This document shows, in pieces, positions 18,295 through 32,578 of a stretch of DNA of 64,000 bases. Position numbers and translations under genes: made by a program. Under the pieces are notes generated by a model. That model worked only from the letters and a program-made list of their open reading frames with translations, was not told where the DNA came from and made no database searches. The stretch lies in NCBI RefSeq assembly GCF_021249345.1, contig NZ_CP089588.1, forward strand, positions 310,001-374,000, written 5' to 3'. How positions within the stretch are numbered: the stretch's first letter is position 1; the number at the start of each line of letters is the position of its first letter. The DNA is from Halobacterium wangiae (GTDB lineage Archaea; Halobacteriota; Halobacteria; Halobacteriales; Halobacteriaceae).

Positions 18295-20529
18295 CTAATT
18301 CTCGTCGGTGAACCGGGCGAGTTCTGCACGTGCCGTGTCGTCGCCGTACGACGCGACGAGCGGCCGGAGCGCGTCGCCGAGCGCGCGCATCGCCTGCCCG
18401 GTGGAGTGGAAGTCCAGTTCGGCGACGACGTCGCTCCACGGCCGGGCCTGCAGGAGTTTCCGGACGAGCAGGCGCTCCTCACGTGCGGAGAGCAGGTCGG
18501 CGTCGCCGGCGACGAGGTGGTAGCGCGCGAGTCGCCGGAACGGTCCGGGGTCGACGCTGTACATCCCGGGGCCGTGGGCGGCGCCCGCGACGACTCGCCA
18601 CTCGTCGGTCGAGAGGTCGAGTCCGGGGTCCGCGTCGCACGCCCGGAGTGCGGCCCGCGCGACGTCCGCGTCGAGGTCATGCAGCGGGTCCGAGAGCACG
18701 CTCGCGCTCCGGCGCGCGAACCAGCCGGCGTGGCGGTCGTGGAGCCGCTCGCCCTCGTCGGTGAGCGGTGCGAGCATCACGGCGGAGTACTCGCCGCTGG
18801 TGTCGTTTCGCGTCGTCGAGAGGTGGACCGTCGAGTAGCCGTTCGCCGACCAGAACGACAGCAGCTCCGGTGTCGCGCCGTAGCCGACGCCGAGCCAGTC
18901 GGCCGTCCCCTCGAACTCGTCGCGAATCGCGCCCAGGAGCCGGGAGCCGAGGCCGCGCTCGCGGACGGCGTGGTGGGTCGCGATGCGCATCACGCGCCAG
19001 CCGACGGGCACGGCGGCGCCCTCGTCGCGCAACTGGCTGGTGAGCACGTCGGGGATCATGTTGCCCCTGACGCGAGCGCCCTCGTACATCGCCGCCCGCA
19101 ACTCCCCGTCGAGGCCGCCCTCGCGAGCGAGCAGCGCGACGGAGACGACGTGGCCGTCGTGTGTGAGCGCGCGGACGGCGAGGTTCGGGGCGTCCAGCAG
19201 GCGCGCGAGGTCGTTCGGTTCGGTCCGGTAGTGGGCGTAGACGAGCAGGCCGAACGCCTCCCGGAGCAGGTGGTCGTCCGCGAGCAGGTCCGCTGGCGGG
19301 AGCGCCTCGTAGCTCGCGTCGTCGACGGAGACGTCCGCGACGAGCGGGTCGACGGCGGGCCGCGCGTCGAGCAGGAGCGCGCGGAACGCCCACGTCTCGA
19401 CGGGGTCGCCGGCGGCGTACCGGATCGGGTCGACGAGCGACACCTCGGTGACCTCGTGGTCGGCGTCGTCGAGTCGGTCCCGGAACCGCACGTCGAAGCC
19501 GCGTCCCGCGCCCTCGTAGCCGTGGACGGTCGTGGTGAACGCCAGGCGCTCGCAGTCGAGCAGCGACTCGAGCAGGCGGACCGGGACGGCGGCCGCCTCG
19601 TCGGCGAACACCGCGTCCGGGTCGCCCAGGAGTTCGGCCGCCGTGGGTGGTTTCTCGAAGCGGATCCGGCCGCCCGACTCGGCGACGAGTGTGTCGCCGT
19701 CGGCCCGGAGGCAGTCGAGGTCGCCGAGCAGTTCCCGGGCGCGAGCGAACAGTTCGTCGGTGCTCCGGCGGCCCGGAGCCGTGACGAGGACGTCCAGTCC
19801 CTCGCGAGCCAGACAGGCGGCGGCGAGGCCCGCGACACTCGACTTCCCGCGCCCGCGGTCGGCCTCCGCGACGACGGCCGCGGGTGCGTCACGAAGCGCC
19901 TCGAACGACGCGAGCGCGCTCAGCTGGTCGTCCGTGAGACAGGCCTCGTACGCCTCGCAGGGGAACGCGGCAGAACTGGGCGGGTCGGGGAGCGGCCGAG
20001 CGAGTCGCGGCGCGGGGTCGGTGAGACCGTCGCGTTCGAGTCGCTGCTCGTCGACGTCGTAGATGGCGACTCCCGGGTGTTCGCGGAGCGTGGCGACGAG
20101 GCGTCGCCGGAAGTTCCCCGCGACGTCGTCGACGTTGAACGGCGGCACCGCCAGACCCTCGTCGAAGGCGTCGCGGCGCCGCGGCCAGTCGTCCAGCGGG
20201 GGCGTGAGGAGAACCAGAAGCCCCCCACCGTCGACGGCGCCGACGACGCGGCCGAGCGCGTTCGGCCGGCAGTCCGGGTGGGCGTCGAAGACGACGGCGC
20301 TCCTGGTGGTGCCGAGCAGGCGGTCGGCGTTCCGCGGCGCCACCTGCTCGCAGGCGAGGGCGTCCCGCGTCGAGACCAGCGTGGTGCCGCCCAGCGGGAG
20401 CGGGAGGTCCGCGAGGAGCGCGTCGGCTGCCTCGAATCCGGCCGCTCGGTCGCCGGCGAGCACGAGCAGGCGTCGCTCGTCGGCCGACCGGGCCTCCTCG
20501 AGCAGCACTCGGGCGGCGTCGACGTTCAT
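18295..20529 (-). CDS. tmcA: tRNA(Met) cytidine acetyltransferase TmcA
   Basis: RNA helicase-acetyltransferase that makes N4-acetylcytidine, in archaea in tRNA and often rRNA. Of 744 residues, the N-terminal domain covers about 1-190; the ATPase has its P-loop near 223-231 (EADRGRGKS) and DEAA at about 310-313; the GNAT domain follows with [20 protein letters not shown] and [17 protein letters not shown]; a tRNA-binding C-terminal tail closes the protein. The P-loop is a variant, as usual in this family. It is divergent from the L7Ae operon. Confidence 0.94.
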
Positions 20530-20610
20530 CGGCCAGTGCTTCGGGGAGGTGGGGCAAGGGCGTTTCGTCCGGCGTGTCTCGTCGTCGCACGGCGACGTGC
20601 TTTGAAAGCG

Positions 20611-20618
20611 CTTTTAAC
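20611..20618 (+). promoter_or_regulatory. TATA-like box of the L7Ae operon
   Basis: CTTTTAAC is the best promoter element between tmcA and rpl7ae. It predicts transcription from about 20640, giving a leader of roughly 94 nt, long for a haloarchaeon. Confidence 0.5.
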
Positions 20619-20639
20619 TGAGGGTCCCCGATGGATAGG

Positions 20640-20733
20640 ATACAGCCTGTGGAGGGTCGATGATGCTCCTAGCCGTCAGGGATTCCGAACCGGCAGGGGA
20701 GCGCAAGCCCGTCCGCGGGAAGGTGAACAACAT
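20640..20733 (+). promoter_or_regulatory. Long structured 5' leader of rpl7ae
   Basis: Predicted untranslated leader. GCTCC (20665-20669) can pair with GGAGC (20698-20702), and within it GCCG (20672-20675) with CGGC (20691-20694), leaving a 2x3 internal loop and a 15-nt apical loop. A second hairpin, CCCG-TCCG-CGGG, covers 20708-20719, just before the ATG at 20734. A GATGATG word precedes the first stem. L7Ae binds kink-turn RNA and is known to regulate its own mRNA in some archaea, so autoregulation is a reasonable hypothesis, but no clear kink-turn with tandem G-A pairs can be drawn by eye. Confidence 0.4.
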
Positions 20734-21096
20734 ATGCCAGTGTACGTTGACTACGACGTTCCAGCCGACCTCCAGGAGCGAGCCCTCGAAGCGCTCGAAG
20801 TGGCTCGTGACACGGGGACAGTAAAGAAGGGAACCAACGAGACGACCAAGGCCGTCGAGCGCGGCAACGCCTCGCTCGTCTTCGTCGCCGAGGACGTCTC
20901 CCCTGAAGAGATCGTGATGCACCTGCCCGAACTCGCCGACGAGAAGGGCATCGGCGTGACGTTCGTCGAGACGCAGGACGAACTCGGCAACGCCGCCGGC
21001 CTCGAAGTCGGCAGCGCCGCCGCGGCCATCGTGGACGCCGGCGACGCCGAGGACGACGTCGAGGACATCGCGCAGAAAATCGAGGACCTCCAGTAA
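20734..21096 (+). CDS. rpl7ae: Ribosomal protein L7Ae (eL8)
   Basis: Kink-turn RNA-binding protein found in the large ribosomal subunit, box C/D and H/ACA RNPs and archaeal RNase P. The 120 residues contain the RNA-contact segment [20 protein letters not shown] and the [20 protein letters not shown] core. The ATG at 20734 fits family length; the long upstream open frame is an artefact of GC bias. It heads an operon with S28e, L24e and Ndk. Its RNP partners Nop5 and fibrillarin are encoded at 31.7-33.2 kb. Confidence 0.97.
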
Positions 21097-21102
21097 CCAG
21101 CA

Positions 21103-21327
21103 ATGAGTGCAGAGGAATCTGAAGAGGGCTCCACGCCCGCCGAAGTCATCGAGGTCGTCGGGAAGACCGGGATGCACGGCGAGGCGATGCAGGTGAAGTG
21201 CCGCATCCAGGAGGGCTCGAACCAGGGCCGCATCATCACGCGGAACGTCCTGGGTCCAGTCCGAGTGGGGGACGTCCTCCAGCTCAAGGAAACCGCCCGC
21301 GAGGCGGACTCCATCGGTGGTCAGTGA
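21103..21327 (+). CDS. rps28e: 30S ribosomal protein S28e (eS28)
   Basis: Small OB-fold protein of the small-subunit head, 74 residues. The core reads [20 protein letters not shown], then [18 protein letters not shown]. An acidic N-terminal tail is added. It starts 6 nt after rpl7ae and overlaps rpl24e by one base. Confidence 0.96.
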
Positions 21328-21512
21328 TGGTTCAGACTCGAACGTGTGACTACTGTGGCGCGGATATCGAACCCGGCACGGGGACGATGTTCGTCCACAA
21401 CGACGGGAGCACAGTGCACTTCTGTTCGTCGAAGTGCGAGAAGAACGCCGACCTCGGCCGCGAGCCACGCGACGTGGAGTGGACCGAGGAAGAACAGGAA
21501 GTCGAAGAATGA
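21327..21512 (+). CDS. rpl24e: 50S ribosomal protein L24e (eL24)
   Basis: Zinc-ribbon large-subunit protein of 61 residues. Zinc ligands are Cys7 and Cys10 (CDYC) and the CSSKC pair further on, in [12 protein letters not shown]. The C terminus is acidic. The ATG at 21327 shares its A with the rps28e stop, and its own stop overlaps the ndk start (ATGA). Confidence 0.96.
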
Positions 21513-21991
21513 GCCACCACGACGAACGAACCTTCGTGATGGTCAAGCCCGACGGCGTCCAGCGCGGTCTCATCGGCGACGTCGTCTCCCGGCTCGAGGA
21601 CAAGGGCCTGAAGATGGTGGGCGGGAAGTTCATGCAGATCGACGAGGACCTCGCTCACGAGCACTACGCCGAACACGAGGACAAGCCGTTCTTCGACGGA
21701 CTCGTCGAGTTCATCACCTCCGGGCCCGTCTTCGCGATGGTCTGGGAGGGCGCGGACGCTACGCGGCAGGTCCGCCAGATGATGGGCGCGACGGACGCAC
21801 AGGAGGCGGCGCCCGGCACCATCCGCGGCGACTACGGCAACGACCTCGGCCACAACCTCATCCACGGCAGCGACCACGAGGACGAGGGCGCCAACGAGCG
21901 CGAGATCGGGCTCTTCTTCGACGACGAGGAACTCGTCGACTGGGAACTCGGTACCGCCTCGTGGGTGTACGAGGACGCCGACGACCACTAG
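21509..21991 (+). CDS. ndk: Nucleoside diphosphate kinase
   Basis: Balances nucleoside triphosphate pools through a phosphohistidine intermediate. The 160 residues include [19 protein letters not shown] and the active-site histidine in [18 protein letters not shown]. Haloarchaeal enzymes are acidic and form hexamers. It is the last gene of the L7Ae operon, overlapping rpl24e by four bases. A CCTTTTTCC run follows its stop. Confidence 0.96.
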
Positions 21992-22116: not shown

Positions 22117-22392
22117 ATGGACTGTCTGGTCTGCAACAAGACGGGGCCGATATACCGGCTCGTCGACGGGGACGTGGTCGGCATCTGCGAGCAGTGCGTC
22201 GCCGAGCACGTCTCCCCCAACGTCGGAAGCGCGACGTGTCTCTACTGCGGGGAGGCTGGCGACTACGACCTCGTCGAGTTCGTCGGCGCGGTGACGGCGG
22301 CCGGTGAGGAGTCCCGGGAGGACTACGAGGTCGTCACGGAGAACGTCGTCTGTCGGGACCACCTCTCGGAGCTCCGCCGCGAGGACGCTTGA
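22117..22392 (+). CDS. Cysteine-rich zinc-finger-like protein
   Basis: Unrecognised 91-residue protein with three Cys-x2-Cys pairs: CLVC near residue 3, CEQC near 24 and CLYC near 41, plus CRDH near the C terminus. Together they could hold one or two zinc ions. The C-terminal part (RREDYEVVTENVV) is acidic. It is convergent with metE2, with only 4 nt between the stop codons. No function is assigned; a role in nucleic acid or protein contact is only a general possibility for such small zinc proteins. Confidence 0.8.
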   Translation: MDCLVCNKTGPIYRLVDGDVVGICEQCVAEHVSPNVGSATCLYCGEAGDYDLVEFVGAVTAAGEESREDYEVVTENVVCRDHLSELRREDA

Positions 22393-31713: not shown

Positions 31714-31721
31714 GTTTAAAC
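31714..31721 (+). promoter_or_regulatory. TATA box of nop5-flpA
   Basis: GTTTAAAC lies 24-31 nt before the nop5 ATG at 31745, a textbook haloarchaeal leaderless promoter. Confidence 0.65.
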
Positions 31722-31744
31722 GCGCGCGGCCGGAATCCCCGGGC

Positions 31745-32578
31745 ATGACCGCACAGGGATGGTTCGCCGGCGTCGACCCCGACGACGCGGCGGCCGCCGG
31801 CGACGCCGTCCGGACGGGCCGCGCAAACGCCCCGGAGGACTGGCCGGCGCTGGCCGTCGAGGCCGGCGCGGCCGACGACGAGGACGAGTACTACGCGTTG
31901 CTCCACGAGGCGACGCTCGCGGGGACGCGGGCGGCCGTCCGGGAGCGCGAGAGCGCCGACGACCAGCAGTTGATTCACGCCGTGCGCGCGATGGGCGACC
32001 TCGCGGAGGCGGCCAACGAGCTCGCCGAACGCGGCACCGAGTGGGCCGGCAGCGTCCTCGACGACGTCGGCAGCGGCGTCGACGGCGCCCGCGAGGTGGC
32101 CAGCCGCGACCCCGCGACGCCGAGCGAGCGGCAGGCGATATCGCTCTGTCGGCGTGCCGCCGACCTCGGAGACGAGCGGGACGCCGTGCGCTCGTACGTC
32201 GAACAGCAGGCGCCCGCGGTGGCGCCGAACCTCTCGATGCTGGCGGGCCCCGTTCTGGCCGCGCGCCTGATCGCGCTCGCTGGCGGCCTCGGTGAACTCG
32301 CGAAGCAACCGAGTGGGACCCTCCAGGTGCTCGGGGCCGAGGACGCGCTGTTCGCGCACCTCCGCGGGCACGCGCCCTCCCCGAAGCACGGCGCCATCTA
32401 CACCCACGAGTACGTCCGTGGCACCCACCCGAGCGAACGCGGGTCCGCCGCGCGCGCACTCGCGGGGAAGCTCACCATCGCGGCCCGGATCGACCACTAC
32501 GCGGGGGACCGACGGCCCGACCTGCAGGCGGACCTCGACGAGCGGATCGAGCGCATCCGGGCGCGTGATTCCTCGTGA
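31745..32578 (+). CDS. nop5: NOP5/NOP56-family C/D RNP core protein
   Basis: Scaffold of the box C/D small RNP that bridges L7Ae-bound guide RNA and fibrillarin. Of 277 residues, the N-terminal fibrillarin-binding part and coiled coil run to about 150. The Nop domain follows, with APNLSMLAGPVLAARLIALA, then GGLGELAKQPSGTLQVLGAE and APSPKHGAIYTHEYV. The N-terminal domain is short compared with thermophile homologues. It is directly coupled to the fibrillarin gene by a GTGA overlap. Confidence 0.95.
   Translation: MTAQGWFAGVDPDDAAAAGDAVRTGRANAPEDWPALAVEAGAADDEDEYYALLHEATLAGTRAAVRERESADDQQLIHAVRAMGDLAEAANELAERGTEWAGSVLDDVGSGVDGAREVASRDPATPSERQAISLCRRAADLGDERDAVRSYVEQQAPAVAPNLSMLAGPVLAARLIALAGGLGELAKQPSGTLQVLGAEDALFAHLRGHAPSPKHGAIYTHEYVRGTHPSERGSAARALAGKLTIAARIDHYAGDRRPDLQADLDERIERIRARDSS

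Follow-up and report, generated by a model that had tools for sequence, protein, structure and literature searches.

A conserved kink-turn arm in the predicted leader of the L7Ae operon of Halobacterium wangiae and other haloarchaea, a probable site of L7Ae feedback

The window analysed here, a stretch of 64,000 nucleotides (nt) from Halobacterium wangiae (contig NZ_CP089588.1, positions 310,001 to 374,000; genome of 3.11 Mb in one contig), carries on its forward strand an operon headed by the gene for ribosomal protein L7Ae (20734–21096; PF01248, E 1.5e-24), whose ATG is at 20734. The genes for ribosomal proteins S28e (21103–21327; PF01200, E 2e-30) and L24e (21327–21512; PF01246, E 1e-23) and for nucleoside diphosphate kinase, Ndk (21509–21991; PF00334, E 3.1e-55), follow on the same strand, the ATG of L24e overlapping the S28e stop codon and that of Ndk the L24e stop codon. 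The subject of this work is the leader in front of L7Ae, as a putative regulatory RNA. Contig comparison placed the near relatives of this genome among the haloarchaea, with Halobacterium among the named ones, and in H. salinarum rps28e, rpl7ae and rpl24e were assigned to one co-regulated class (PMC7394353), which is consistent with an operon without demonstrating feedback.

A TATA-like box, CTTTTA, was found at 20611–20616. Since transcription in archaea starts about 25 nt after the TATA box, the start region was predicted at 20640–20644, which gives a predicted L7Ae leader of 90–94 nt (about 92 nt) and bears out the leader of about 94 nt proposed by the first-pass annotation. For comparison, 110 haloarchaeal L7Ae upstream regions were collected, 30 from a genome search and 80 from genome contigs; some genomes are present twice, and the set holds 90 unique core sequences. 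The strand patterns applied to them lost no locus and demanded AUGA and [GA]AG[CU], so that counts on those letters are not independent; statements of invariance were taken instead from a MAFFT alignment of 36 leaders. A [TC]TTT[TA]A box was present at a fixed distance in 110/110 loci, with 45–47 nt from its end to the end of the GATGA (or CATGA) motif, and the leaders were 86–162 nt long assuming a start 24 nt past the box. As a yardstick within the window, the TTTAAA box before nop5 (PF01798 match; 31715–31747) ends 25 nt 5′ of the likely ATG, as placed here, and this gene looks leaderless.

The L7Ae leader was predicted to fold as one long hairpin arm (20646–20719, 74 nt), which starts no more than a few nt from the predicted 5′ end and is followed by a Shine-Dalgarno (SD)-like AGGTGA at 20721–20726, 7 nt 5′ of the ATG. 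The arm consists of a lower helix (C-helix), an asymmetric loop, an upper helix (NC-helix) and an apical loop. Folding and covariation define the 5′ strand of the lower helix (20646–20657), whose terminal U20657 pairs with G20707; its 3′ strand (20708–20719), defined by folding, contains one bulged base (20711). The asymmetric loop is formed by a bulged strand at 20658–20663 (C, a GAU bulge and GA, with positions 1b and 2b at 20662 and 20663) and a non-bulged strand CAAG at 20704–20707 (2n A20705, 1n A20706, –1n G20707). The upper helix (20665–20675 and 20691–20702), supported by folding and by the pair types over the 90 unique leaders, closes the apical loop (20676–20690), in which AGGGA occupies 20678–20682. 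Unconstrained folding recovered both helices, with at least six pairs each, in 90/90 unique leaders, and the bulged base of the lower helix, after four pairs, was unpaired in 86 of them. The folding energy of the window leader was unremarkable (z −1.72; 8/200 shuffles equally stable). Two hairpins, one with an asymmetric internal loop, had been proposed from this sequence alone; the asymmetric loop was confirmed, and the two hairpins proved to be a single arm, the fold of all 90 unique leaders.

Comparison of the sequences gives good support to the asymmetric loop as an L7Ae-type kink-turn, with the GAU bulge and GA on one strand and GA on the opposite strand. The upstream strand reads Y-GAU-GA and the downstream strand [G/A]A-G-CC; all 36 leaders of the MAFFT alignment (36/36) share without exception the A, U, G and A of the former and the A, G and C of the latter (20706–20708 in the window). 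The second GA step of GAUGA was taken as the kink-turn GA, since relatives alter the first GA and retain U-GA, the variants being CAU-GA (leaders L014, L018, L022, L189 and L191), AAU-GA (L179 and four of the compact forms described below) and GGU-GA (L195). The –1 pair was U.G in 89 of the 90 unique leaders and, by eye, U-A in L189 and L191. Position 2n was G in 74/90 unique leaders and A, as at 20705, in the remaining 16, which are exactly the unique leaders of the family of the window; as an Asn residue of L7Ae contacts G2n in the Archaeoglobus fulgidus complex (PMC6298567), the affinity for L7Ae may differ in this family. A distance of 44 nt separates the two strands in the window, and one of 39–114 nt over the 90 unique leaders. 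This separation, with A for G at 2n, makes the kink-turn hard to spot by eye, and the earlier remark that no classical kink-turn was evident is understandable for the non-standard copy of the window, the motif being supported by comparison across haloarchaea. The haloarchaeal family as a whole shows a C-helix, a 3-nt bulge, G.A and A.G pairs and an NC-helix.

Covariation, which the first-pass annotation had named as a check, was strong across haloarchaea. From the unmodified MAFFT alignment of the 36 leaders, RNAalifold derived one arm of 17 pairs, 11 of which showed double changes. Standard pairs amounted to 92.3% in the observed alignment vs 80.7% in shuffled ones, and the covariation score was 0.436 vs 0.224; over five measures, no shuffle out of 500 equalled the real alignment on even one. 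When the partner was shifted by 1–3 columns, pairing fell to 30–56%.

The arm was present upstream of L7Ae in 110/110 haloarchaeal loci aligned. A covariance model built from the 36 leaders (R1) gave one match in the genome of the window (E 5.2e-29) and matched 191/194 haloarchaeal genomes, a figure that shows breadth and not independence, since the model was trained on the same clade. In all 18 genomes compared by eye the match ended on the L7Ae ATG. Two of the three genomes missed, G190 (leader L178) and G258 (L180), have an arm that is recognisable by eye and has large insertions at its apex, and the third, G011 (L182), has a compact hairpin instead; G196, G261 and G266 gave two matches each. 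In a search of 120 genomes of the phylum, R1 matched 19/19 haloarchaea and gave four weak matches (E 5e-4 to 0.09) in the other 101 genomes. The latter were considered as homologues of the large form and counted as chance, none of them lying where its genome has its best L7Ae-family match; each of these four genomes has a second L7Ae-family member, the place of which is not always listed, and no L7Ae-like start was seen in the frames after the four matches. A second weak match (E 0.019) in G003 lies far from the L7Ae gene of that genome. The Rfam 15 covariance models gave no match up to E 5 in positions 20400–21000 of the window. Among the 119 genomes with L7Ae-family matches, PF01248 proteins numbered one in each of the 19 haloarchaea and at least two in 97/101 genomes from the rest of the phylum; haloarchaea seem to lack the L30e paralogue.

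On inspection by eye, 20 extra leaders comprised 13 of the large form and five compact ones, besides L194, which was unassigned, and L193, which is cut by a contig end. In L195 the loop is a textbook kink-turn (GGGU-GGU-GA, 11 bp, GA-GCCC), and the AU-rich L179 retains the arm with a different sequence. The compact forms come from five divergent genomes of two families (L181, L182, L184, L196 and L197), whose L7Ae is 61–70% identical, and consist of a kink-turn hairpin directly before the SD sequence, replacing the large arm. L184 and L196 read CGU-AAU-GA-CGCGC, a 4-nt loop and GCGCG-GA-ACG, L181 and L197 carry the compensated helix AGCGC...GCGCU, and the C-helix of L182 has two pairs. A generic kink-turn scan of the 20 leaders had low power, with no match in 6/20 and wrong places in several others; only L195 (score 15) exceeded the 99th percentile of 11.0.

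The comparison directly supports the conserved structure, the kink-turn geometry within the family and the spacing of the arm relative to the start codon. Across the leaders, the 1n base lies 23–30 nt before the AUG and the arm ends 10–17 nt before it, upstream of the SD core; an SD-like match of at least 5 nt follows the arm in 88/90 unique leaders. The distal C-helix was predicted to be paired without protein (average pair probability 0.97, lowest value 0.50). As pairing is predicted for the C-helix and the arm does not include the SD core, a clamp or steric block is favoured. On this evidence the leader of the L7Ae-S28e-L24e-Ndk mRNA is likely to be a conserved kink-turn arm by which L7Ae limits its own translation, with L7Ae binding and feedback on the operon suggested by analogy with published cases in other archaea. 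The transcript would begin almost at the hairpin, already folded without protein. Surplus L7Ae, beyond what rRNA and guide RNAs take up, would then bind the kink-turn, kink the arm and lock its base beside the SD sequence, where it would hinder loading of the small ribosomal subunit. S28e, L24e and Ndk may follow by translational coupling, their genes being closely spaced and overlapping.

Several observations weigh against this reading. The window copy is non-standard, its 1b.1n pair being G.A and its 2b.2n pair A.A, with a bulge of 4 nt; in most large forms there is a fourth base in the bulge or one more mismatch, and the NC-helix is imperfect. In the generic scan the compact forms scored 7–8 against a 95th percentile of 8.05 (600 shuffles) and were not singled out, so that the case for them is made by their recurrence, their position and two versions of the helix with compensating changes. 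The SD bases were themselves predicted to be partly paired in weak local structure, the mean probability of being unpaired falling to 0.19 near −10, and Haloferax volcanii had no need of an SD sequence in the sod leader tested (PMC3986360), a result that fits a blocked landing site better than burial of the SD sequence. The A. fulgidus l7ae leader, known from a crystal structure, is unstructured until L7Ae binds and has its SD sequence within the C-helix (PMC6298567), whereas the haloarchaeal helix is predicted to be stable with the SD sequence outside it; neither trait was given by our predictions, and neither was taken as defining. Finally, nop5 is regulated by L7Ae in Sulfolobus or Thermococcus, and the nop5 of the window is apparently leaderless; a wider L7Ae regulon, considered with this gene as the case, was set aside.

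Feedback by L7Ae through a leader kink-turn has been published by Daume 2017 (PMC5539422) and Huang 2019 (PMC6298567). The kink-turn described by Daume in the l7ae 5′ UTR of Sulfolobus acidocaldarius and others (PMC5539422) concerns the same gene and the same place, with its strands near the SD sequence as here; it is short, within about 50 nt, whereas the arm described here is 74 nt in the window and longer elsewhere, has its strands 39–114 nt apart and carries an apical motif. The haloarchaeal arm likewise lies in the l7ae 5′ leader, as placed from the TATA box, and close to the SD sequence. The core GAUGA of the upstream strand is common to the arm and to the A. fulgidus leader, from which the window leader differs by its A at 2n (PMC6298567). 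According to Daume, an SD sequence, and hence a leader, is found for nearly all archaeal l7ae genes, with high leader conservation only in Sulfolobales, and a 50-bp H. volcanii fragment lowered reporter output with Sulfolobus L7Ae in Escherichia coli (PMC5539422); a figure legend of that paper places a Kt-b strand further upstream in the alignment (PMC5539422). In eight Haloferax species the upstream strand lies 101–103 nt before the AUG, and the last 50 nt contain no GAUGA. Judged from these species, H. volcanii itself not being among those retrieved, the 50-bp fragment probably lacks the upstream strand, in which case the signal obtained by Daume would come from the alternative strand that they marked, or from something else. 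The word Haloferax is absent from the main text of Huang et al. (PMC6298567), and, beyond Daume 2017, no description of the arm, its covariation, its breadth, the compact relatives or the loop motif was found in a literature search outside which the supplements lay, including the Text S1 alignment of Daume. Thus, the principle and a hint of the upstream strand are already in print, and the large haloarchaeal form appears not to have been described before.

Near the 5′ side of the apical loop, AGG(G)A recurs in 84/90 unique leaders despite loop lengths that range from 12 to 87 nt and, in some groups, extra hairpins; the AU-rich L179 has AAGGA. A switch pairing the loop CAGG with CCUG of the 5′ strand was dropped, since CCU/AGG fits widely by eye and the neighbouring bases do not covary. 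The persistence of the motif would be accounted for if a second ligand, such as another ribosomal protein, the anti-SD sequence of the ribosome or a small molecule, read the loop and L7Ae were one of two inputs; no partner for AGG(G)A was found and the compact forms lack the loop, and this possibility is considered unlikely, though somewhat less so than the two other rivals to L7Ae feedback discussed below. In a bolder form, proposed tentatively and as rather improbable, the large arm would be a pre-folded two-input device evolved from a small protein-dependent kink-turn switch, with L7Ae as the clamp on the kink-turn and AGG(G)A as the site read by a second factor, perhaps the anti-SD sequence. 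If so, L7Ae, S28e, L24e and Ndk would answer to two signals through a steric block, not through burial of the SD sequence.

Feedback by L7Ae has also to be weighed against a constitutive 5′-terminal arm that serves mRNA stability or ribosome loading, with or without L7Ae binding and with no feedback. The position of the arm, a few nt from the predicted 5′ end, and its predicted folding without protein would suit such a role. Stability alone, however, would not call for an invariant GAUGA/AG core, or for the recurrence of compact kink-turn hairpins in this position in divergent genomes, and we regard this explanation as improbable, somewhat more so than a second ligand. A guide RNA contained in the leader and released by processing is very improbable: the upstream UGAUGA, the downstream GA strand (CUGA in 15/90 unique leaders) and the closing outer helix resemble a box C/D kink-turn, and ACA follows the arm in 81/90, but the covarying helix and apical loop fill the middle of the arm, in the place of guide regions, no second box pair was seen, and ACA, where present, is mostly 20–23 nt past the loop and not 13–16 nt. 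The latter distance is that of the ANA box from the pocket in H/ACA RNAs (PMC2584109), and some ANA at 13–16 nt was present in 48/90 unique leaders, which is not informative because the motif is so loose. Both guide-RNA readings, unsupported by the architecture of the arm, were set aside with no search made for rRNA targets.

The arm provides a conserved structured leader in organisms with genetics, in which the exact residues for mutation are identified. The compact and large forms together show how a kink-turn regulator can grow, and the alignment (A1) or the model R1 could seed an RNA family.

Two further genes border the operon. After Ndk, positions 22117–22392 encode a protein of 91 residues in which Cys-x-x-Cys motifs occur in pairs; Pfam gave no match to it at E 0.001. 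On the other side, tmcA (18295–20529), for tRNA-Met cytidine acetyltransferase, starts at 20529 and is divergent from the L7Ae promoter region.
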